Origin: a virus | Strand: one strand, 5' to 3' | Virus record (IMG/VR): IMGVR_UViG_3300050821_008655 | Location: 1-24,401 of that record | DNA: 24,401 bases | Shown here: piece by piece, positions 592 to 10,998 of the stretch | Layout: each line of letters opens with the position of its first letter | How positions within the stretch are numbered: position 1 is the first letter of the stretch | Program-made: the position numbers and the translations under genes | Notes under the pieces: generated by a model | Told to the model about the DNA's origin: nothing | Seen by the model: the letters and a program-made list of their open reading frames with translations, nothing else | Database searches by the model: none

Positions 592-2328
592 TTACGCGTA
601 GACTGTTGGTTGCAATGGTCCCGTCAAGGTCACGCCGCCGGAGTTCAATGAGCCATAGGCACACCCAATGACTGACATTATGCTGCTTGGATCACAAGCA
701 TAATCAGAATTACCATTAGAGGTTGCAACCGAACCGGTGAAAAATCCTGCAGCCTTGTAGATCGCCACTCCACCGTTCAAATAATTGCATTGCATATAGG
801 ACGTGCCTCCGTACTGAGACTGTCCTGGTATCGCGCCTGTCGCCCACATGAAAACAGTTCCGCTCAGTCCAGCGTATACGCCCATCCCCGCATTGCCGAT
901 CGAGATGCAAGGAGTCACGAACTTGAATTCGCCGTTCGATACGATGAACCCGGCCGATCCTTGGCAAGAGCACGCAAAGCACGGTTCCTGAAATTCTATG
1001 TTACCGCCGGTAGCGGCAAAACCGGCGCCACCGCTACCCCATACAGCGACATTCTTGCAGATCATGTTGGTACGACGATTCATGACCGCATAAGCACCAG
1101 AATTCGGCGCGGCAGTGTTCTCGCCCGTGATGAGAATGTCGCGCACAACCGGCGAACCAGGACCGAGATTGGTCAAGCCTATGGCTAACCCAGGAGCAAA
1201 ATTGCCGAAGTGCGTGGTATAATTGAACTGAATCTCGGTACCGAAACGAGCGCGCAGCATCACGATGTTTGTCGCCGCATCATTGGCACGGTTAGCTGCA
1301 GCAAATCCAGTACGGGCAAAATCTGAAAGTGTCGGTGCCGCCGTCAGCATCGTGCCTTTCAAAATCATGCGGTCGGCGCTCGGATGGTAGATCGAGATTG
1401 GCGAATAGATCCCGGTCGCGAGCTGAATAGTCAGTGTCGCAGTCGGATAAATCGTCTTGCGCGCAAGCGCGGCTAACAAACTCGCCACTGTCGGGAAGCG
1501 CGTCGTTGGAACATTGATCGTAACATTTGAGGAGATCGCCGGATTTGGCCGGATATAAAAGTTGGTCCCGTCATAGACAAATTCCACGACGTCGCCCGCG
1601 AGCACATCACCGGGGAGAAGATCACTGCCATCTGGAGCTTTTACTGGATGCACTGGAAGAGCATTCACCTTCAAAGTGGTTACATCGGTGACATTGTTAG
1701 CCACCTTGACCAACAAAACAGCGCCAGCGTTCAACACCGTGATGGCAGGACTGAACGGCGCAACGATGTTGTTTACAGTTCCGGTATCGACCACGTATGG
1801 GATGTTGACATTGACGAAGTTGACTGTGCCGGCTTGGCCTGCGCCGCCAAAGTTGGTGAGCTGCCACGCGGTCCCATCCCAGGTCACCTCGATGATGGCA
1901 CCGGCTCGTATCTCGGCGTTGGCCGGGCTCGATCCATCCATCTTTCTGATCGGCGCCGCACCGGCACCGGCGTCGAGCGTCATCGAAGTGTGCGTGACGT
2001 CGACCAGGTTGTCATGGAGAACGCGAATGCGAAGCGGAAGCCCTCGCGTGTACGTTTGGATTGCAGGAGTAAACGCTACCACCAGAGCGTTGACCGTTCC
2101 GGTGTCGTCCGCAAAGTTCATCGCCTGGCTTCTGGTCCCCTTCGCCAGCTGAAAGAGATCAGCGTCGTCAGGAACGATGCTGCTCGAGCTGATGAAATTG
2201 ACGATCTCGCGCTGCGGATACTCTATGCTTGCCGCGGGCGGAATCGAGCCCTGCACTCCGGTTTGCGGGTTTCCGTTAACGTACCCAGCATTCAGATCAC
2301 TGACACCCCAAGGCGCTTGATACTTCAC
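592..2328 (-). CDS. Tail fibre / tailspike with beta-helix domain
   Basis: The start chosen is GTG at 2328 (protein of 578 residues), because GGAG lies seven bases upstream and the frame upstream of it overlaps the gp48-like gene. The N-terminus (residues about 1-70) has the tail-fibre style 'VNGNPQTGVQGSIPPAASIE' followed by 'YPQREIVNFI', typical of the baseplate-attachment end of phage fibres. Two related blocks of about 85 residues follow, each containing D-T-G-T-V-N, P-A-I, D-V-T, D-G-S and D-G-T motifs in the same order. From about residue 265 to the end the sequence is glycine- and aliphatic-rich, with short strand-turn repeats that suggest a parallel beta-helix (pectin-lyase-like), as in tailspikes. 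Cysteines cluster near FACSCQGS. It closes the baseplate block after gp48, as the Mu fibre gene does. The role is host recognition; depolymerase activity is possible but no catalytic residues can be named. Confidence 0.85.
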   Translation of the reverse strand: MKYQAPWGVSDLNAGYVNGNPQTGVQGSIPPAASIEYPQREIVNFISSSSIVPDDADLFQLAKGTRSQAMNFADDTGTVNALVVAFTPAIQTYTRGLPLRIRVLHDNLVDVTHTSMTLDAGAGAAPIRKMDGSSPANAEIRAGAIIEVTWDGTAWQLTNFGGAGQAGTVNFVNVNIPYVVDTGTVNNIVAPFSPAITVLNAGAVLLVKVANNVTDVTTLKVNALPVHPVKAPDGSDLLPGDVLAGDVVEFVYDGTNFYIRPNPAISSNVTINVPTTRFPTVASLLAALARKTIYPTATLTIQLATGIYSPISIYHPSADRMILKGTMLTAAPTLSDFARTGFAAANRANDAATNIVMLRARFGTEIQFNYTTHFGNFAPGLAIGLTNLGPGSPVVRDILITGENTAAPNSGAYAVMNRRTNMICKNVAVWGSGGAGFAATGGNIEFQEPCFACSCQGSAGFIVSNGEFKFVTPCISIGNAGMGVYAGLSGTVFMWATGAIPGQSQYGGTSYMQCNYLNGGVAIYKAAGFFTGSVATSNGNSDYACDPSSIMSVIGCAYGSLNSGGVTLTGPLQPTVYA

Positions 2329-2359
2329 TATTATTCTCCGCTCTCTAAGACGTACGCTT

Positions 2360-3082
2360 TCATGGTGTCCCTGCCATCGATCCACCGTAGAACAAACCAG
2401 AATAGTCATAGACAAGCGCGGTGTGCGCCGGCTTCCAGCGATTCAACAGACACTCGAAATCAGACTCGACGCCGATGCGGAGATGATGATCGACGCCGCA
2501 TTGGCTTACAGAGCAGCGAAACCAGATAAGCCGCGCCTGACCGGCGTGCGCGGTCCAATAGTATCGAATCTCAGGCGGCCCGATCTCCCAGCGAAAATGG
2601 ATATTATCTTCACCGTCCAAGAGATTGACGCCACGCGTGTCACCGACTTGACTCACGCCGACCATGAACGGGCTTTTTTCGGTGATCGTGATCTGGTGGC
2701 CGATCCAAGCCGCCATCCGGATGAAAAAATCCCGCGACTGCTCGCCTAGCAGCGTCATCTGCAAGACGAGCATCTTGCGTCGCTCGTCGAGCGTGGTGGT
2801 GTCCGGATAGCAGGGATCTGGCAGACCCCAGTTGCGCTCCCAGTCCGGCAGCAGCTCGGTAGTCTTGCGCGGATCGCTCTCGACCTCCAACAAGTCCGCG
2901 GCGCGCTGATCGACAAAACCCCAATAGTTGTTCAGCCCAAAGCACGCGTCGACCAGAATCGATCCCGGCTCGCGCGGCCACGCCTGCCCGGTCGGCAGCA
3001 GCTCGAGATATTGCAGCGCATAATCGTTGCCGCTGCGACGAATATGTTTGTCAGGAAGTAATGCTGAGGATTGTGCCGGCAT
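2360..3082 (-). CDS. Mu gp48-like baseplate protein (DUF2313)
   Basis: The protein contains YLELLPTGQAWPREPGS near its start, then LLPDWERNWGLPDPC and ERRKMLVLQMTLLGEQSRDF, the hallmark pattern of the gp48/DUF2313 baseplate family (also called YmfQ). This family sits beside gp47 in the wedge and joins it to the tail fibre. I chose the ATG at 3082 (240 residues) over an in-frame ATG at 3094, because AGGA lies about ten bases upstream of the former and directly abuts the latter. The gene overlaps the 3' end of gp47 by 32 bases, suggesting coupled translation. The C-terminal part (after about residue 120) contains FMVGVSQVGDTRGVNL and several Cys/His residues (CSVSQCGVDHH). Length is in the usual 190-250 range. 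Order gp46-gp47-gp48-fibre is as in Mu. Confidence 0.9.
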   Translation of the reverse strand: MPAQSSALLPDKHIRRSGNDYALQYLELLPTGQAWPREPGSILVDACFGLNNYWGFVDQRAADLLEVESDPRKTTELLPDWERNWGLPDPCYPDTTTLDERRKMLVLQMTLLGEQSRDFFIRMAAWIGHQITITEKSPFMVGVSQVGDTRGVNLLDGEDNIHFRWEIGPPEIRYYWTAHAGQARLIWFRCSVSQCGVDHHLRIGVESDFECLLNRWKPAHTALVYDYSGLFYGGSMAGTP

Positions 3083-4166
3083 CGTAGAATACATTCCTGA
3101 GAACGGCCATGTGACCGATACTCGGCATTACATCGTCGCTCGAATCCTGAAGATCGAACGATATGACGTTAGCCACCGACATGATGGCATAATACTTCCA
3201 AGCGCTGAAAATCGTCTGCCCTGGGGCAGCGCGCAGATAGAGCATCCCCAACAAGCTTTGGTGCACCGCAGCACGTGTGGCCTCGTCGTTGGGATTGAGA
3301 CCAGCGATCTTGACGTCGATCGGCTGTGGAATAGGACCGAAGACAAACGTGTCTTTCACCGTGACCGGACGCTTGAAGTTGACGTAATTCGTCACAGCCT
3401 CAACGTCTGAAGCCAGCGGAAAGCCGGCGTTGCTGTTAGCGCGCAGCTGGTCGCACATGAAGCGCACGGTCACCGTCCCGATCCCCATCTCCACGTTGGC
3501 CCACGCCCGCGTCACGCCGTTCACCGCCTTCGCCCACGCGACGTAGTCGTAGTTCGCGCCTCCCATCGGCGGCTGGCGGATACGTTCCAGAACGCGGATG
3601 CGAAGGTCGTCGTCGGTCTCCTCGTCGGTGCCGGTCTCCAAGGCGACCACCGTCGCGGTGCCGTCGAGCCCGTCTACCGGAGTAACGACAGAGAGCATCG
3701 CGCCTGAATCGAGGTTCCCGGCGGAGCCTGGAACGAGCGCTTGAACGGGCACCGGGGTGTCAGCCTGGGACTGCGCCAGCGTGACGAAGCTAGTGGTTTC
3801 GTAGCCGGCTTGCGTGCTCCCATAGTTGAGCTGCGTATTAGCGGGGACAACGGTGCCAGCCACGCCGGTCAGGGCCACCGTTCCAGTCGAGAACGAGGCG
3901 GCCTTTCTCCCGGTCGAACCGTCGGCGTTGACCAGCCAGATATCGCCGTGCCGATCGAGCCACTCCTGTTCGGCGGTGTCAGGCAAAAGTTGCAGCGCCA
4001 GCCAGTCGACATACTGCAGCGTCAGGTGGCAGACCGCACCCTGGTTGTCCGAGAGCACCCGCAGCACGGAGTTCGGCACCATGGCGTCGGCGCCGGGCAG
4101 ATAGGCTTGGATGCTGTCGCGTACGAGCGACCGCACCTCTTTGAGCGTGGGAGTTGCCCAAGGCAT
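3051..4166 (-). CDS. Mu gp47-like baseplate J protein
   Basis: This 371-residue protein matches the baseplate J / gp47 family in length and in order of motifs. It has an N-terminal helical part with LRVLSDNQGAVCHLTLQYVD and QEWLDRHGDIW, a central beta part with GTVVPANTQLNYGS and QALVPGSAGNLDSG, then ETDDDLRIRVLERIRQPPMG and VTRAWANVEMGIGTVTVRFM. The last group is the strongest signature: proline/glycine after the arginine-rich helix, then the 'gV..awv.p...G.GtV.v.f' strand. It forms the baseplate wedge ring together with gp46 and gp48. Its ATG overlaps the gp46 stop in TAATG (one base shared), and its tail overlaps the gp48 start by 32 bases. No anomalies were seen. Confidence 0.95.
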   Translation of the reverse strand: MPWATPTLKEVRSLVRDSIQAYLPGADAMVPNSVLRVLSDNQGAVCHLTLQYVDWLALQLLPDTAEQEWLDRHGDIWLVNADGSTGRKAASFSTGTVALTGVAGTVVPANTQLNYGSTQAGYETTSFVTLAQSQADTPVPVQALVPGSAGNLDSGAMLSVVTPVDGLDGTATVVALETGTDEETDDDLRIRVLERIRQPPMGGANYDYVAWAKAVNGVTRAWANVEMGIGTVTVRFMCDQLRANSNAGFPLASDVEAVTNYVNFKRPVTVKDTFVFGPIPQPIDVKIAGLNPNDEATRAAVHQSLLGMLYLRAAPGQTIFSAWKYYAIMSVANVISFDLQDSSDDVMPSIGHMAVLRNVFYDAGTILSITS

Positions 4167-4711
4167 TAGTTCTGCTCCGGAGTGCCGATGTCGGCGAAGC
4201 CGCTCTCGCCGATTATCCCGGTCCAGAGAATCTGATAGCGCAGGTCTATCTCCAAGATCGGTCCCCTATAGATGCGAACGAGAGCGTCGATGCGCTGCAT
4301 ATCCACTCTAGTGACGACTACTTCCATGCTGGAACCGATGCGCTGATCCAGAAACGGCTGTATCGCCTCGCGAATGTAGTTCTCGATGCGGACCGTGGTC
4401 GCGCCTTGCTGCGCTCCAGAGCCGACGATCTTCTCGCGACGCATGAGCCACAGCCGCGTTCCGATCGGCCATCCGTTCCAGATCTCCTCGGCGTCCGCGT
4501 CGCCCCACCATCCCCGGCGATTGGTGTCGTCTGGGTCTGGAAGCACGTCGCCGGGCTCGGCGAGCCGATCGGTCCCGAGCGCCACGATGACCGCGGTGGC
4601 AAGCGACTGCGTGTCGTCCAGCGTGCCGTTGCCGAGCAGGTTCCAGTCGATCTGGACGACGCCCTGACCGGGAAAGAGCGTGTTCTGGACGAGGCGAATA
4701 TCTGCACCCAT
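4166..4711 (-). CDS. Mu gp46-like baseplate wedge protein
   Basis: The 181-residue protein contains LATAVIVALGTDRLAEPGDV followed by RRGWWGDADAEE and GTRLWLMRREKIVG. This is the GP46 family pattern (aspartate-rich loop, R-G-W-W-G-D, then the S/T-R-L-W-L-L-R-R-E-K helix). A helix 'RIENYIREAIQPFLD' and a beta-rich tail complete it. The family forms part of the baseplate wedge in Mu-like phages. I chose ATG at 4711 over the TTG just upstream because GAGG lies seven bases before the ATG. It follows the third fibre-like paralog by nine bases and overlaps gp47 by one base. In Mu gp46 directly follows gp45; here three paralogous genes separate the two. Confidence 0.92.
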   Translation of the reverse strand: MGADIRLVQNTLFPGQGVVQIDWNLLGNGTLDDTQSLATAVIVALGTDRLAEPGDVLPDPDDTNRRGWWGDADAEEIWNGWPIGTRLWLMRREKIVGSGAQQGATTVRIENYIREAIQPFLDQRIGSSMEVVVTRVDMQRIDALVRIYRGPILEIDLRYQILWTGIIGESGFADIGTPEQN

Positions 4712-4720
4712 CAAAGAACC

Positions 4721-6736
4721 TCAAGAATAAAACCCTGATATTTGAGATAGCACGATAGCGGAAGGCACTGAACTCGACCAATTGGCAGCACCAGTCAGCA
4801 ACGCTGCTGCGTCACCAGGTGCCCAATAACTCGTAATTCCTAAAACGCCTTGCGATTGGTAAACTCCACCGCCAGTGATACGCAATCTGACGACAATACC
4901 GTTTGTGCCGTCAACTCCGTGCGCAAGCTCATCGGAGACTAAAGTTTGCCCTGCTGTTATAGTAGCCCCTGGTTGTCCACCAAATAACAGTTGAGACGAC
5001 GATACCATCTCGAATCCAAATGGATGCTGAGGAGACCGTGGGCCGATGTAGCACTTATCAAACGTGAAAGGACCATAGCCCTGCAACGAGATTTTTGTCT
5101 TGTCGCCAGCGCGGGTCGGACTAATCGTGCTACTATCAATTGAAATCGCGAGAGTGACCCCGCCCCATCCAGATATTCCTTGACTGTATTTAAGCATTGG
5201 CAAGCGCGGATAGTATCCCACATTGGGATACTCAGCCTGAATCATATTAACGGCATACGCAACATCCCCACCGTTTGAATAACCACTCACGCGGTTCGGG
5301 TTCAAAGCCGTATCGCCTGCCGCGTACCAAGCATGAAAGCCTGGAGGGGTGCCACTGTCGGCGGTGCCACCTCCGCTTGGGACACCAACAAGATAAACAA
5401 CAAGCCCATTTGTTCCGTCGATGCCTTGCGCAACCTCGTCAGACACCAAAATACCAGCTCCGCCCGCGACTGACGCGACAATGCCTCCAGGTTGACCGTT
5501 GAATGTCAATTGAACGAGGCCGCCAGGATCTGGGCTTGGCGTGTAATATTTATCTGATGACTGACCAGAAGTTTGAAGAACACGTGGCCCGATATAGCAT
5601 TTAGTGAACTGTAAGTTCGTGCCTTTCAGGACAACTCTAGTCTTGCTCCCCCCACTGATTAGATTCAACGCGCTCGCATCGACGGTTATGGCCATAGTGA
5701 GGCCATTGATCGAAGAAGAACCACTAGTCAACCATAGTCCGGCACGCGTGACAAGGATCGAAGAGGAGGCTAGGACCGGAGGGCCACCGCCATCACCTCC
5801 TCCTCCAGTGACGCCGCCGCCGGTGACAGTGCCGGTCGGCGGAGGTGGCGAAGCCGTTGTGTCCCAACCAGACGTAACGTCATACGCAATGACGCCTGCG
5901 AGCGTAGTAAGAGAGTTTATTATCTGTGTTTTGACTAGACGCGTTGTTTGCAGTTGGTTGCGCCTCCAAAGAATGCCCCATATCAGTTCGCGCATCTGCG
6001 CCATCGTCAAGCGCACCATCACGGTCGAATTGAGCGGCGGCCAGTCGACAGGCGGCCCGGCTATTGCCGGCGGAGCATTGATCGGAGCCTTGCTCATAGC
6101 GACGTTCGGCTGCTGCGTCACACCGCCGCCTGACACACCCGTGACACCGGATCCAGTAGCCTGCCATGACCCGTCCGCTATCGTGTCGTGTCTTCCATCC
6201 GTATTCGTCAAAAAAATGTCTGGGATATTGTCCGTTGAGGGCGAAATGGCCGAAGCGGCAACGCTCTGAGTGAGAGGTGTCTGAACCGACATTGCGTTGA
6301 CGTTGTCGGCGAACTGAGCATCGCCGACCGTGACCGCGTTGGCGACATCCCATGCCATGATCGCGGACTGCATCTCAACCACAGCCTGATCAGTAGCTTC
6401 CCAGGTATTACCCGCGTAGACGACCGGCAGTTGCCGCTTGCTGTTGAAGAGACCATCAACCAAGCCGATCTTGACCATCTTTGCTTGCACCAGCGTGATC
6501 GGAAACGCAAGCGCGGAAGCTTGCGTGATCCACGCATTCACGAATGAAGCGTATGGCGTCACGTCGATGAACGGCTCCAACAAGCGCAGCCGATCGTTGT
6601 ATTCGATATTGCCAGATCCGCTGCTGCAATCGTAGATGACAACGGCAACATTGCTCGGGACTGGCGAGGTATCGATCGCGAGCGGCTGATTATCGATCGA
6701 CATGATACCTTCAGATCGGGCAACGACAAGATCCAA
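4721..6736 (-). CDS. Fibre-like paralog 3, DUF4376-like with duplicated C-terminal domains
   Basis: Residues 1-295 are a paralog of the two proteins encoded just upstream. They share VARSEGIMSIDNQPLAIDTS, FNSKRQLP, an aromatic T-W-(E/D)-A-(S/T)-D-Q-A helix, and W-P-P-L-N followed by a long helix ending in a G-W. The two halves (K-R-x-L-P...W-D-V-A and W-P-P-L...) resemble the DUF4376 layout of fibre-associated proteins. After a proline/glycine linker (PPPPTGTVTGGGVTGGGG) comes an extension of about 350 residues absent from the paralogs. It holds two copies of a beta-rich domain, each with K-C-Y-I-G-P-R, then G-Q-P-G and V-S-D-E-(V/L)-A-x-G-(I/V)-D-G-T-N-G. I chose TTG at 6736 (671 residues) because it aligns with the paralog starts and has GGGG seven bases upstream; an ATG at 6742 lies too close to that site. 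It is the largest and most likely receptor-contacting member. No enzyme motif was seen. Confidence 0.8.
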   Translation of the reverse strand: MDLVVARSEGIMSIDNQPLAIDTSPVPSNVAVVIYDCSSGSGNIEYNDRLRLLEPFIDVTPYASFVNAWITQASALAFPITLVQAKMVKIGLVDGLFNSKRQLPVVYAGNTWEATDQAVVEMQSAIMAWDVANAVTVGDAQFADNVNAMSVQTPLTQSVAASAISPSTDNIPDIFLTNTDGRHDTIADGSWQATGSGVTGVSGGGVTQQPNVAMSKAPINAPPAIAGPPVDWPPLNSTVMVRLTMAQMRELIWGILWRRNQLQTTRLVKTQIINSLTTLAGVIAYDVTSGWDTTASPPPPTGTVTGGGVTGGGGDGGGPPVLASSSILVTRAGLWLTSGSSSINGLTMAITVDASALNLISGGSKTRVVLKGTNLQFTKCYIGPRVLQTSGQSSDKYYTPSPDPGGLVQLTFNGQPGGIVASVAGGAGILVSDEVAQGIDGTNGLVVYLVGVPSGGGTADSGTPPGFHAWYAAGDTALNPNRVSGYSNGGDVAYAVNMIQAEYPNVGYYPRLPMLKYSQGISGWGGVTLAISIDSSTISPTRAGDKTKISLQGYGPFTFDKCYIGPRSPQHPFGFEMVSSSQLLFGGQPGATITAGQTLVSDELAHGVDGTNGIVVRLRITGGGVYQSQGVLGITSYWAPGDAAALLTGAANWSSSVPSAIVLSQISGFYS
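4778..5710 (-). repeat. Two copies of a beta-rich domain in paralog 3
   Basis: Copy A lies at about 5710-5288 and copy B at about 5170-4778, separated by a spacer of some 40 codons. Both copies carry, in order, a strand with (T/S)-x-(I/L)-x-(I/V)-D-(A/S)-S, then (S/D)-K-T-(R/K)-(V/I)-x-L-(K/Q)-G, K-C-Y-I-G-P-R, L-x-F-(N/G)-G-Q-P-G, V-S-D-E, D-G-T-N-G-(L/I)-V-V, and a final W-Y-A-A-G-D or Y-W-A-P-G-D. The pattern resembles the beta-sandwich modules that precede SGNH hydrolase-like domains in phage tail proteins. No hydrolase domain follows here. The copies have diverged at the DNA level, so the duplication is old. Confidence 0.75.
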
Positions 6737-6746
6737 ACCCATACCC

Positions 6747-7640
6747 CTATGACGTTGGCCATCCCGCTGTTGCGTCGTAGGTGATCACAGCAGCGATGGT
6801 CGTCAACAAATTTATCGTGTTCTTCTTGGCCAATCGCGTGGACTGCAACGTGGCACGCCGCGATTGAATGTTAGAGAGCAAAGTTCGCATGCTCATCATG
6901 CTGAGAGTGACAGGCAAGGTCGCATTGAGCGGAGGCCAAGAAACATTCGGCCCCGACGTTGACTGATAAGTCATAGCGCTCTTGCTTCCTACATACGCGG
7001 GCTGCTGATTTACTCCACCGCCAGTGACACCGCTCGGATAAATCCATCCTGGTGAGTTCGTAAAAGTCGGGGACCAGCCTGTCTTGGCGCCAGTTCTGGG
7101 ACTTATGTCGTACAGATAACGAATAAAAGATGTATCGCCACCAGCGCCCGACGGTTGCGACGCGCTTTGAGTCAAAATGACCTGCAAGCTCATGCCGTTG
7201 ACGCTGTTTGCAAGGGCAGCGTCGCCAGCAGATATCGCCGCCGCGATATCCCAGGAGTTCACGGCCGCCTGCATTCCGGCCAACGCTTGGTCGCTCGCAT
7301 CCCATGTCTGTCCAGCATAGCTGATCGGAAGCTGACGTTTGCTGTTGAAGATACCGTCAACGAGTCCAAGTTTTACCGTTTTCGCCTGCGCAAGCGTGAT
7401 CGTCATTCCGATGATTGCCGCAGCCGCAGTGATCCACGCGTTCACGAATGGAGCGTAAGGCATGACATCTGTGAACGGACTAAGCACGCGTAGACTATTG
7501 TTGTATTCCAAGTTGCCAGATCCTCTAGAGCAGTCATAGGCAACGATCTCGATATTCGCAACAAGAGGTGAGGTATCGATCGCAAGCGGCTGATTGTCTA
7601 TCGACATGACGCCTTCAGATCGAGCGATAAGCAAGTCCAT
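6747..7640 (-). CDS. Fibre-like paralog 2, DUF4376-like
   Basis: This 297-residue protein is the middle of three tandem paralogs. Its N-terminus (MDLLIARSEGVMSIDNQPLA) is nearly the same as in its neighbours. FNSKRQLPIS and QTWDASDQALAGMQAAVNSW form the first half of the DUF4376-like pattern, and WPPLNATLPVTLSMMSM with the helix after it forms the second half, ending in ATAGWPTS. Between the halves (about residues 140-230) is a segment that differs from the paralogs in sequence and length, apart from a shared V-(S/T)-G-G-G motif. The ATG at 7640 lies three bases after the previous stop with no strong Shine-Dalgarno, so coupled translation is likely. DUF4376-like regions occur in tail fibres and fibre chaperones; which role applies here is not settled by sequence. 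Confidence 0.8.
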   Translation of the reverse strand: MDLLIARSEGVMSIDNQPLAIDTSPLVANIEIVAYDCSRGSGNLEYNNSLRVLSPFTDVMPYAPFVNAWITAAAAIIGMTITLAQAKTVKLGLVDGIFNSKRQLPISYAGQTWDASDQALAGMQAAVNSWDIAAAISAGDAALANSVNGMSLQVILTQSASQPSGAGGDTSFIRYLYDISPRTGAKTGWSPTFTNSPGWIYPSGVTGGGVNQQPAYVGSKSAMTYQSTSGPNVSWPPLNATLPVTLSMMSMRTLLSNIQSRRATLQSTRLAKKNTINLLTTIAAVITYDATAGWPTS

Positions 7641-7643
7641 TTT

Positions 7644-8528
7644 CTAGAACGGCCATCCTGTCGTCGCATCGTATGCGATCACCGCGGCGACGGTCGCGAG
7701 CGCGTTGATCGCGTTGCGCTTGGCGAGCCGCGCATTCTGCAACGTCGTCCGCCTGCTGTTAATGGAGCTGATCAAGCTTCGCATATCCGTCATAGCTAAC
7801 GATACCGTGACGGTTGAGTTGAGCGGCGGCCACTGAACACTGGGGCCTGTCGTTATCGCGGCTGTAAGCTGAGAATTATAGGCTGCCACAAACTGCGCTT
7901 GTGAACTAAAACCGCCGCCGCTTACCGAGCCAGCAAAATAGGAAGAAGTCACGTTCTGACCGAATGACCATGTTCCGTCTAGATTTTGTGTAGGGCGTGG
8001 AACGTAACTGATCGCTCCACCGTCAGCAACCGCTGGCGGGCTAGCATTGATGAATGATGTAGGAGCCGTTCGTATTGAAATGCCATTAAAGTTCTGCGTC
8101 AGCCCGCTGTCCGCAGAAGTTGCCGATGCGGCAACGTCCCAGCTGGTGATCGCGGCCTGCATCCCCATCAGCGCTTGATCGCTAGCGTCCCAAGTATGAC
8201 CTAGCGCAGTGATCGGGAGCTGGCGCTTGCTGTTGAAGATGCCGTCAACGAGCGCGAGCTTGATCTGCTGCGCCAGCGACAGTGTCAACGGAGCGCCGGT
8301 GATGAGAGCCGCTTGCGTGAGCCACGAATTGACGAACGGCGCATATGGCACCACATCGATGAACGGTTCCAGCAAGCGCAGCCGGTCGCTGTATTCGATC
8401 CGCCCGACGCCGCTCGCAAGATCGTAGGCTACGATAGCGACATTGACCGGCAGTGGAGACGTGTCGACCGCGAGGGGCTGGTTGTCGATCGAGACTATCC
8501 CTTCCGATCGCGCAACGACAAAGTCCAC
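7644..8528 (-). CDS. Fibre-like paralog 1, DUF4376-like
   Basis: The first of three tandem paralogs (294 residues) starts with GTG at 8528, preceded by AGAGG eight bases upstream that overlaps the spike-gene stop. The domain order is as follows. Residues 1-95 are a shared N-terminal domain with SIDNQPLAVDTSPLPVNV and RLRLLEPFIDVVPYAPFVN. Residues 96-140 carry FNSKRQLP and HTWDASDQALMGMQAAITSW. A variable segment with Q-N-L-D-G-T-W-S-F-G spans about 150-230. The last part, 231-294, has WPPLNSTVTVSLAMTDMR and a long helix. The shared first 95 residues could be the part that docks on the baseplate, and the variable segment the exposed part; this is inference. It has no counterpart between gp45 and gp46 in Mu. 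Confidence 0.8.
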   Translation of the reverse strand: MDFVVARSEGIVSIDNQPLAVDTSPLPVNVAIVAYDLASGVGRIEYSDRLRLLEPFIDVVPYAPFVNSWLTQAALITGAPLTLSLAQQIKLALVDGIFNSKRQLPITALGHTWDASDQALMGMQAAITSWDVAASATSADSGLTQNFNGISIRTAPTSFINASPPAVADGGAISYVPRPTQNLDGTWSFGQNVTSSYFAGSVSGGGFSSQAQFVAAYNSQLTAAITTGPSVQWPPLNSTVTVSLAMTDMRSLISSINSRRTTLQNARLAKRNAINALATVAAVIAYDATTGWPF

Positions 8529-8539
8529 ATCTAAAGCCT

Positions 8540-9820
8540 CTACGCCACGTTGCCGGGGATAGCGCCAGCCTCTTGCACGCTGCCCGCACCTGCGCCGCCG
8601 CTGGCGGTGCCAGAGCTGCCGCCGCCACCGCCGGCCTCAGGCAGAAGCACCTTGCTGCAGACATGCGCAACGATGCGATGCCCCTTGCTATCGATGCTGC
8701 CGCGCATCGCGGCCGGGGTGTTCGCGCTCTTGTCGCCGACCAGAACCTTCTGCTTGTTCTGATCGAGTATCACGTCGGTGCTCTTGGTGAAAAGATGGAC
8801 TTGTTTCTGGTTGTTGTCCAGCTGGATCGTCTCTTGAGGCTGGCCCTGATCGAGAGCCTGCAGGGTAATCATCTTGCCCCCCTGGTCCATCCGGAACCAC
8901 AGGGTCAGGTTTCCCTGCTGGTCGAGCGTCTGAATCTCGACGTAGTCGTCCTCCCCGTCCTGCGTGACCACTAGCCTTGGCTTTTGCTGCTCGCTGTCGG
9001 GAGGGTAATAGACCGTGAAGCTGTAAGTCTGCTTGCTCTCGTCAACCTTTCCCTCGAGGATCGGCCCCTTGGGCTTCTGGTTCTGCCCCTTCGGCGTTGC
9101 ATCGCCCTGACCGCTGGTCAACCAGAACTTCGAGAGTAGGTCACCGTCGTCGTTGTCCTTTTGCCGCACGAAGACGACCGAGTCCTTGTCGAGGGCGTAC
9201 GTCGAGAGCGGCTTCCACGGCTTGTCCTGCTGTCCAGTCTGCTCGATGCTGTTGTCGTCGCCGCTGGACTGTTGTTGCTGCTGCTGCCCTTGACCCTGCT
9301 GCGCGTCGTCGATGTCTTGCTTGGACTGATCGCGGGTCTTCGTCTTGTCTGCCTGCTGCTCGTCCTTGATCACTCGGCCCACGATCTTGAACTGGCTTCG
9401 CGTCAGTATCAGGTTGCGCTTGATCTGAATCTTCTGCTGCTGGTCGTCGTAGACCCAGACCTCGCCCTCTTTGTTGTTGAACAGCCGATAGCGGCGATCG
9501 TCCAATACTTGGATCACCGGAAACGCGCGATTGCCTCCCATAAATTGACCAAAATGTTCGGCGGAATTCTTGATCGACCTCTCTGGCGTTCCGCTATCGG
9601 GCTTCTCACCGGAGTCGTCACTGCCGTACTCAGCCTTGCGACAGTAGGAGCTGAAGCCGTAATTCTGCGGATGCTCGACCTTCTTCCGCGTCTCGTACTT
9701 CATGTAGTTGACTTTGACTTCCTGCATATATTGTTTATCGTCCGCCTCGTGCACGAGACCGCGCGCGCCGCCGGAACCGTAGGCACGAAGCGAGCTGTCG
9801 AGAGGAGTAGCGCGTTGCAT
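8540..9820 (-). CDS. Mu gp45-like central spike, enlarged
   Basis: The 426-residue protein carries the gp45 signatures HPQNYGFSSY (residues 50-59), QFMGGNRAFPVIQVLDDRRY and GEVWVYDDQQQKIQIKRN, which are the OB-fold region and the start of the beta-prism. The C-terminal part has strand repeats with V-I-L-D-Q-N and an H-L-F-T-K-S turn, and ends in a Gly/Ser/Ala-rich tail. Mu gp45 is near 200 residues; here extra sequence of about 200 residues lies after the OB region. It includes a Gln/Asp-rich stretch at about 153-200 with six consecutive glutamines. The usual C-terminal histidine iron-binding motif (H-x-H) of phage spikes was not found. The gene lies between the hub and the paralog trio. The role is membrane piercing at the tail tip. 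Confidence 0.88.
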   Translation of the reverse strand: MQRATPLDSSLRAYGSGGARGLVHEADDKQYMQEVKVNYMKYETRKKVEHPQNYGFSSYCRKAEYGSDDSGEKPDSGTPERSIKNSAEHFGQFMGGNRAFPVIQVLDDRRYRLFNNKEGEVWVYDDQQQKIQIKRNLILTRSQFKIVGRVIKDEQQADKTKTRDQSKQDIDDAQQGQGQQQQQQSSGDDNSIEQTGQQDKPWKPLSTYALDKDSVVFVRQKDNDDGDLLSKFWLTSGQGDATPKGQNQKPKGPILEGKVDESKQTYSFTVYYPPDSEQQKPRLVVTQDGEDDYVEIQTLDQQGNLTLWFRMDQGGKMITLQALDQGQPQETIQLDNNQKQVHLFTKSTDVILDQNKQKVLVGDKSANTPAAMRGSIDSKGHRIVAHVCSKVLLPEAGGGGGSSGTASGGAGAGSVQEAGAIPGNVA

Positions 9821-9834
9821 GCTCTCTATCTTCC

Positions 9835-10998
9835 CTATGACACTGCAGGAAGGTTCCCGGTCCCGCCGCCGCTCGATGCCCCGCCGCCGCTCGATGTCGA
9901 TTGTCCAGGCAAGCCACTCATTCTACCCTTAGAGTCCGGTACCTTGAACGGCTGCACCAGGACCAACGTCGTCAGCGATCCGCTTTGATTATCTTGCGTA
10001 AAGGTGACTTGTTGGATGGCCAATTGCTGATCCAGCATTGCCATTGGCGAGGTAACTTTCACCTTCTTTCCGATCGCCCAAAGCTCACCACGACCTTGCG
10101 CGCCGCCGGGCTGCCATCCCTGCACCGTGACCGTAGCCTGGAGTTCCTGCGTCGCTGCAAACATCTGTTCAGTAAGAGCCCGTTTATCCACTTCTTTGAG
10201 AGTCCGAACCGGCTGCTCCATGGGAATCTTGCAAACACTGTATTGCTCCGCTGTGCCGTCCTTCGATTTCCTCTGCTCTGATGCGGCTTTCCCGTTGAGC
10301 TTATTATCGGCCGGCGTCTGACAGTCCAATATGTATTTGCTGAACGCATTCTTCTTGCTCATCTCGCACTGCATCTTGAGAATGTTCTGCCCTTCGATGA
10401 GCTGGCCCTGATTGCCGGCGTCGTAATCCTGCCCGATGAGCACCAGCTTGCCGTCCTTGTCGGCGGTGAAAGTGACATTACGGTCTCGCGCGAGACGCTC
10501 GACGAATGCATGGATCGTTTCCCCCGGCATGCAGTGCATGTAATCCCATTTGGTCATATCGACGTTGCCCCTGGTCTCGCATTTGACGCCCGTGGGCTTC
10601 AGGATCTCATCTACGATCGCCTTGAGGTCCTTGTCGTCGAAGCTGTGTGTCCCATGGTTGATTCCAGAACGCACCGCGGGATATGTATTGGTCACCCCCC
10701 AGATCACGACGCCGTGACGGTAGGCGTCATAGGCGACCTGGCGGCTCAGGATTATGCCATCCTTGATCGCGTCCTGGTTTGCGAGCTTCACCGAGCACTT
10801 CTGGCCCGGCTTGAATTGGTCGGCGCCCTTGCGTTCTGCGCACGTGAACTTGAATTGATGATATGTATCGCCCAAGGTCTGCTGCACCCAGATCGTTTCG
10901 AAGTCCTCGAACTGTTGGCCGCCAACGCTGAGCGTGGCTTTCTCGCTCTGGGCCTTTGTTGGCGGCGGTGGTGCAGGCGACGTAACAGGAAAAGGCAT
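9835..10998 (-). CDS. Mu gpP-like baseplate hub protein
   Basis: The 387-residue protein has the gpP/gpD hub layout. An N-terminal beta domain carries ATLSVGGQQFEDFETIWVQQ and FKFTCAERK, and the GQKCSVKLANQ strand follows. The second domain contains YRHGVVIWGVTNTYPAVRSG, then LKAIVDEILKPTGVKC, then a LysM-like/gpD stretch GETIHAFVERLARDRNVTFT. The last 25 residues are a Ser/Gly-rich tail (SSGGGASSGGGTG). The hub forms the trimer at the end of the tail tube and carries the spike encoded next. The start ATG at 10998 lies just after the stop of the second gpN-like gene. A proline-rich N-terminal lead (SPAPPPPTK) precedes the first domain. Confidence 0.9.
   Translation of the reverse strand: MPFPVTSPAPPPPTKAQSEKATLSVGGQQFEDFETIWVQQTLGDTYHQFKFTCAERKGADQFKPGQKCSVKLANQDAIKDGIILSRQVAYDAYRHGVVIWGVTNTYPAVRSGINHGTHSFDDKDLKAIVDEILKPTGVKCETRGNVDMTKWDYMHCMPGETIHAFVERLARDRNVTFTADKDGKLVLIGQDYDAGNQGQLIEGQNILKMQCEMSKKNAFSKYILDCQTPADNKLNGKAASEQRKSKDGTAEQYSVCKIPMEQPVRTLKEVDKRALTEQMFAATQELQATVTVQGWQPGGAQGRGELWAIGKKVKVTSPMAMLDQQLAIQQVTFTQDNQSGSLTTLVLVQPFKVPDSKGRMSGLPGQSTSSGGGASSGGGTGNLPAVS

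Follow-up and report, generated by a model that had tools for sequence, protein, structure and literature searches.

The DUF4376 proteins that have been studied are intermolecular tail-fibre chaperones (PMC7289586, PMC10579305). Formation of a functional receptor-binding protein in Alteromonas phage V22 depends on gp27, which is absent from the final complex (PMC7289586). Chaperones of the A5 type, such as A5 gp9, are like intramolecular chaperones and have inserted beta-hairpin tentacles that vary in length (PMC10579305). Campylobacter homologues of these chaperones occur in CJIE1 and Fletchervirus, and the C-terminal part of Mu U/Tfa has been grouped with them (PMC7882524). A literature search on duplicated receptor-binding genes returned no paper that combined all the features sought. 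T2/S16-type gp38 adhesins combine a chaperone-like attachment part and a recognition part in one protein. In Mu, the baseplate module comprises gp44-gp49, and gp45 and gp46 overlap by 4 nt with no gene between them.

The stretch of viral DNA analyzed in this study (the window) is 24,401 nucleotides long and corresponds to positions 1 to 24,401 of IMG/VR record IMGVR_UViG_3300050821_008655. It carries genes corresponding to Mu gp44, gp45, gp46, gp47, and gp48 in the same order based on Pfam/PHROG (Table 1). Unlike Mu, the window has three consecutive minus-strand paralogous ORFs between gp45 and gp46 (4721-8528), here called P1, P2, and P3 in order of transcription, which confirms the tandem triplication described at this site by the first-pass annotation; its statement that gp45 and gp46 are adjacent in Mu agrees with the 4-nt overlap. 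The genes are separated from each other by 3-4 nt, and they sit within the baseplate gene run with gaps of 3-12 nt. In the fibre at the gp49 position of the window, the C-terminal half looked parallel-beta-helix-like (depolymerase-like) by eye, no Pfam match was obtained for this protein, and no Tfa-like gene was seen 3' of it.

Table 1. Positions of the baseplate genes, the P genes, and their segments in the window.
Feature	Position	Strand	Basis	Remarks
gp44-like hub	9835-10998	(-)	Pfam/PHROG	
gp45-like central spike gene	8540-9820	(-)	Pfam Mu_Gp45, 1e-9	upstream neighbour
P1, first paralogue	7644-8528	(-)		294 aa, GTG start
P2, second paralogue	6747-7640	(-)		297 aa; orthologue L013:5773-6654
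P3, third paralogue with C-terminal extension	4721-6742	(-)		673 aa; orthologue of the same architecture L013:6670-8700
gp46-like baseplate wedge gene	4166-4714	(-)	Pfam GP46, 2.4e-22; PHROG wedge subunit, 9e-26	downstream neighbour
gp47/baseplate J	3051-4166	(-)		
gp48-like	2360-3094	(-)		
Fibre, gp49 position	592-2415	(-)		607 aa
P1 variable middle, residues 151-228	7845-8078	(-)		putative out-and-back stalk and tip
P2 variable middle	6945-7190, limits approximate	(-)	sequence divergence between paralogues	
P3 variable middle	6047-6286, limits approximate	(-)	sequence divergence between paralogues	
P3 extension, first beta-rich domain (D1)	5207-5773, limits approximate	(-)	37% identical to D2	
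P3 extension, second beta-rich domain (D2)	4724-5212	(-)	resemblance to SGNH carbohydrate-esterase CBM domain, low-confidence model	

Pairwise identity among P1, P2, and P3 is 52-54% across the entire shared ~293 residues, and the full-length matches of P1 to P2 (53% identity, E = 6.8e-95) and of P1 to P3 (52% identity, E = 4.7e-85) are far above chance. DNA repeats lie in register across the three genes at a spacing of 888-904 nt. The similarity first noticed over the initial ~95 residues is real and is not confined there, as it runs through the shared part except for a diverged middle. Identity is 62-79% in residues 1-58, 51-62% in residues 60-150, and 56-64% in residues 229-292, and only 20-26% in residues 151-228; for P1 versus P2, the variable middle is 20% identical and the flanking segments 62-64%. 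The absence of P from some relatives would fit non-structural or redundant copies with no role in the particle, although this is very improbable, given three intact genes within the baseplate run that are also kept as ordered orthologues in a related contig (L013).

In a maximum-likelihood tree, P1, P2, and P3 each paired with the L013 gene at the same position (support 94/96, 100/99, and 99/98, respectively). The triplication thus predates the split of the window phage and L013 and is old as judged from this tree, and a recent triplication was rejected. The single-copy P genes of L004, L058, and L015 formed a separate clade (support 100/100). Because each copy has been retained as an orthologue in the same order, the earlier idea of interchangeable proteins is not supported; the fixed order suggests separately kept roles. 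No extension is present in the L014 P3-like gene, which is sister to the window/L013 P3 pair, or at the end of a partial P3-like gene in L019, so that the extension arose or disappeared inside the P3 lineage.

Relatives of P were found in about 50 contigs in IMG/VR scans, as well as in one Bradyrhizobium genome. No match was obtained by tblastn against 50,697 named phage records for P1, for its distant relatives L051 and L022, or for the P3 extension and a related domain in L120. We annotated every locus with relatives, and the comparison of copy number proposed with the first-pass annotation gave 0, 1, at least 2, or 3 copies at the site. The gp45-gp46 interval holds a single P gene in about 30 uncultivated Mu-like contigs, of which some are near-duplicates, at least two in L014, which is truncated, and three in the window phage and L013; it is empty in others (e.g., L061, L063, and L076-L078). 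P occurs together with fibre genes in the interval of L029, L030, L033, and L047, and other genes occupy it in L060, L062, and L028, the last also with P. L004 and L058 are very near the window in the baseplate (gp45 78-83% and gp46 89% identical), yet have one P gene each. The gp45-gp46 interval is therefore a recurrent accessory site, and a private insertion of the P genes was rejected on the basis of this distribution. In L025 and L034, P lies between the terminase and portal genes and does not adjoin gp45. L034 and L094 are one contig of 93.7 kb, and its P gene, like that of L025, is far from the baseplate genes, indicating that the P gene is portable and that docking to gp45 is not implied. 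The genome of Bradyrhizobium sp. Tv2a-2 has two P loci (G001:C8:54978-55853 and 219534-220409) and offers an accessible prophage system.

The structure of P1 was predicted with AlphaFold from a 34-row alignment. Mean pLDDT was 82, with 92-98 by ten-residue block in residues 1-130 and 231-294, and <50 in residues 165-208 of the variable middle. In the model, an N-terminal beta domain is followed by two helices (60-75 and 83-102), a small hairpin (106-113), and two further helices (117-149 and 246-276). Foldseek against viral predicted structures (BFVD) returned almost exclusively DUF4376 proteins as top matches (probability 1.00), some of which superpose at 3.0-3.2 A over about 215 columns. By sequence, P1 scored 18.1 bits against Pfam DUF4376 (PF14301), under the gathering cut-off of 25, P2 and P3 gave no match to this family, and the profile matched 7 of the 34 members of the P family at E<0.1, the lowest E being 1.2e-4. 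Only the C-terminal residues 229-284 of P1 aligned to the V22/A5 chaperones (hhalign E = 1.7e-4, probability 49). Foldseek against the PDB gave nothing better than E = 0.67 for P1, PDB sequence searches gave no meaningful match, and a low-probability overlap of the P1 N-domain with the KTSC domain (PDB 4rgi) is a lead only. These results support with good confidence, on the predicted model, that P1 shares the DUF4376 core fold, its Pfam score remaining below the family cut-off. The DUF4376 similarity suggested by the first-pass annotation is thus weak in sequence and strong in fold, and the structure prediction it called for recovered a DUF4376-like core, with a middle of low confidence.

Like DUF4376 chaperones, P proteins have a helical core fold with an inserted excursion of variable length. 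They differ from these chaperones in a separate N-terminal beta domain, in a much larger excursion, probably with a helical outgoing leg and an extended return, in relatives whose C-termini are fused to foldon/fibre or beta domains, and in gene position, the window genes lying between gp45 and gp46 rather than directly 3' of a fibre gene, where a chaperone is expected. The shared fold raises the main alternative, namely that P1-P3 are intermolecular chaperones or caps, similar to V22 gp27 or A5 gp9, of a fibre or of an extended gp45 spike, with partner-matched tentacles as middles and no need for presence in the virion. V22 gp27, a relative of A5 gp9, is an experimentally demonstrated chaperone (PMC7289586, PMC10579305), the Campylobacter homologues (PMC7882524) and the variable-length tentacles of the A5 type point in the same direction, and small N-domain-only P relatives lie 3' of fibre genes in L029 and L082, as does a DUF4376 protein in L097. 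Nevertheless, we consider this alternative rather unlikely, since the window P genes are not downstream of a fibre, a chaperone fused ahead of a fibre, as in L091, would be unusual, and the coiled-coil-like middles and the extra domains of P3 are left unexplained. In addition, fibres at the gp49 position that are 46-53% identical exist in relatives with no detected P, including a 58-kb contig (L076). Retention of this fibre without P indicates that P is accessory and not its obligatory chaperone, and the role of P as chaperone of the gp49-position fibre is disfavoured.

The P relatives differ chiefly in the segment between two long core helices. Compared with that of its near relative L058, the L004 protein has 66 more residues in the outgoing leg, consisting of 11-residue repeats, and 31 more in the returning leg, consisting of PTQTA repeats, with a tip stretch of 46 residues in each. 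As a helix (1.5 A per residue), 66 residues span 99 A, and 31 residues in extended or polyproline form (3.1-3.4 A per residue) span 96-105 A. We compared leg lengths in ten divergent loci sharing a mid-motif picked by eye, with some relatives that lack the motif left out; outgoing legs were 98-188 and returning legs 49-99 residues long, and the two covaried (r = 0.92, slope 0.50 +/- 0.07, permutation p = 3e-4). Each leave-one-out r was at least 0.84, and phylogenetic contrasts gave r = 0.94 and a slope of 0.56. A helical outgoing leg paired with an extended returning leg would give a slope of about 0.45-0.50, and the observed slope is near this expectation, so that the variable middle behaves like an out-and-back stalk. 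Repeats of 15 residues, a period known from the YadA stalk and other right-handed coiled coils, were above shuffles in the middles of L051 and L033. The 11- and 15-residue repeats belong to the relatives; P1-P3 have short middles with neither. Because the P1 middle was modeled at pLDDT <50, we infer the stalk from relatives with long middles rather than from P1-P3.

The extra C-terminal part of P3 reported in the first-pass annotation is present. It is made up of a beta-rich domain in two diverged tandem copies, which are 37% identical in the window and also occur in L013, the only other viral contig with the extension among those searched. Among 297 genomes of the order of Bradyrhizobium, two weak matches were found, one of which looks genuine (L120), a prophage-like tail protein with a related domain. 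The AlphaFold model of D2 was poor (pLDDT 45), and from this model the top Foldseek matches in the PDB were 7tok, 9kr0, and 7tog (E 4e-3 to 2e-2); a PDB sequence search with D2 gave no match. The nearest structural match in this low-confidence model is thus the CBM domain of SGNH carbohydrate esterases, although P3 has no esterase domain. It is a reasonable guess from these models that D1 and D2 bind sugar.

Several observations link the P family to fibres. The 1292-residue P protein of L091 runs in frame into a foldon-like segment, which matches Fibritin_C weakly and under the cut-off, and then into roughly 900 residues of fibre, and the P proteins of L029 and L047 have foldon-like ends; in the annotated loci, Fibritin_C exceeded the cut-off only in the L033 fibre. 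At this site, gp45 also gains foldon-like or fibre sequence (L060 and L062) or is fused to a fibre (L067). Between the window and L013, the P proteins are 65-68% and the fibre 62% identical, whereas gp46-gp48 are 89-95% identical, indicating that P evolves at the rate of the fibre. We therefore consider it somewhat more probable than an even chance that P1-P3, with their chaperone fold, form homotrimers and serve the tail tip as accessory fibre proteins. Adhesion at the baseplate, proposed in the first-pass annotation, is plausible and is favoured by the foldon/fibre fusions, the stalk-like middle, and the extra domains of P3; presence in virions, trimer formation, the docking site, adhesion, and sugar binding are what we infer. 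More tentatively, the fold of a fibre chaperone may have become a permanent part of the virion, as a trimeric adhesin with a stalk that leaves and re-enters its core and with three differently tipped copies per particle. Like T2/S16-type gp38, such a protein would combine attachment and recognition, with different domains.

In this accessory-fibre model, a conserved base, comprising the N-terminal beta domain and the DUF4376-type helical core, would dock on the tail tip; its fold is that of tail-fibre chaperones and is similar to the intramolecular chaperone found in phage fibres. The chain would exit the base between two core helices as a helical coiled-coil stalk, form a fast-changing tip, and come back as an extended strand, keeping the tip away from the base, and the stalk would lengthen by matched insertions in both legs. 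P3 would add, via its C-terminus, two tandem beta-rich, probably carbohydrate-binding domains at the base. A single ancestral gene would have been triplicated before the window phage and L013 split, and the copies would then have kept different tips. To our reading, three points are new: a core of the DUF4376 type, the rule for an out-and-back stalk, and the in-frame connection with fibre modules. P would represent a recurrent accessory tail-tip family that neither Pfam nor PHROGs covers at threshold and that gave no match in named phage genomes, and the spike-wedge gene interval of Mu-like phages would be a hot spot of host recognition. The two-leg length rule makes a sharp structural prediction and, if true, the stalk would show a route from a chaperone fold to a structural adhesin.

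The proteins could also be arranged in series as a central fibre under the gp45 spike, with each N-domain docked on the preceding core and P3, with its extra domains, at the distal end. Consistent with this, the extension is on the last gene only, in both the window and L013, gp45 continues into foldon-like or fibre sequence in L060, L062, and L067 (with Peptidase_S74, 1.1e-9, in L067), and the Sf14 needle has a terminal cap (PMC11821841). We regard the chain as improbable, since the N-domains are about equally similar (62-79%), though P1 would need a different partner from P2 and P3, and P can be encoded away from gp45 (L025 and L034). The gp45 extensions are C-terminal and lie at L060:3960-5072, L062:918-1907, and L067:1-2595; the fusion to a Peptidase_S74-ending fibre in L067 suggests, from sequence, a spike continuing as a central fibre. 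The gp45 protein preceding P often has a conserved C-terminal tail, LVKKDxxCKE, whose cysteine lies close to the terminus (L016, L029, L041-L051, and L091). Additionally, proteins of the gp45-gp46 interval in L029, L030, L033, L047, L060, and L062 often end in 'LDGG[NTS]F', and a gene starting 'MADTIRIKRR...AELAYNE.D..LYYG' lies directly 3' of these ends; the LDGG[NTS]F end and the MADTIRIKRR start may possibly be a docking pair between consecutive fibre subunits.
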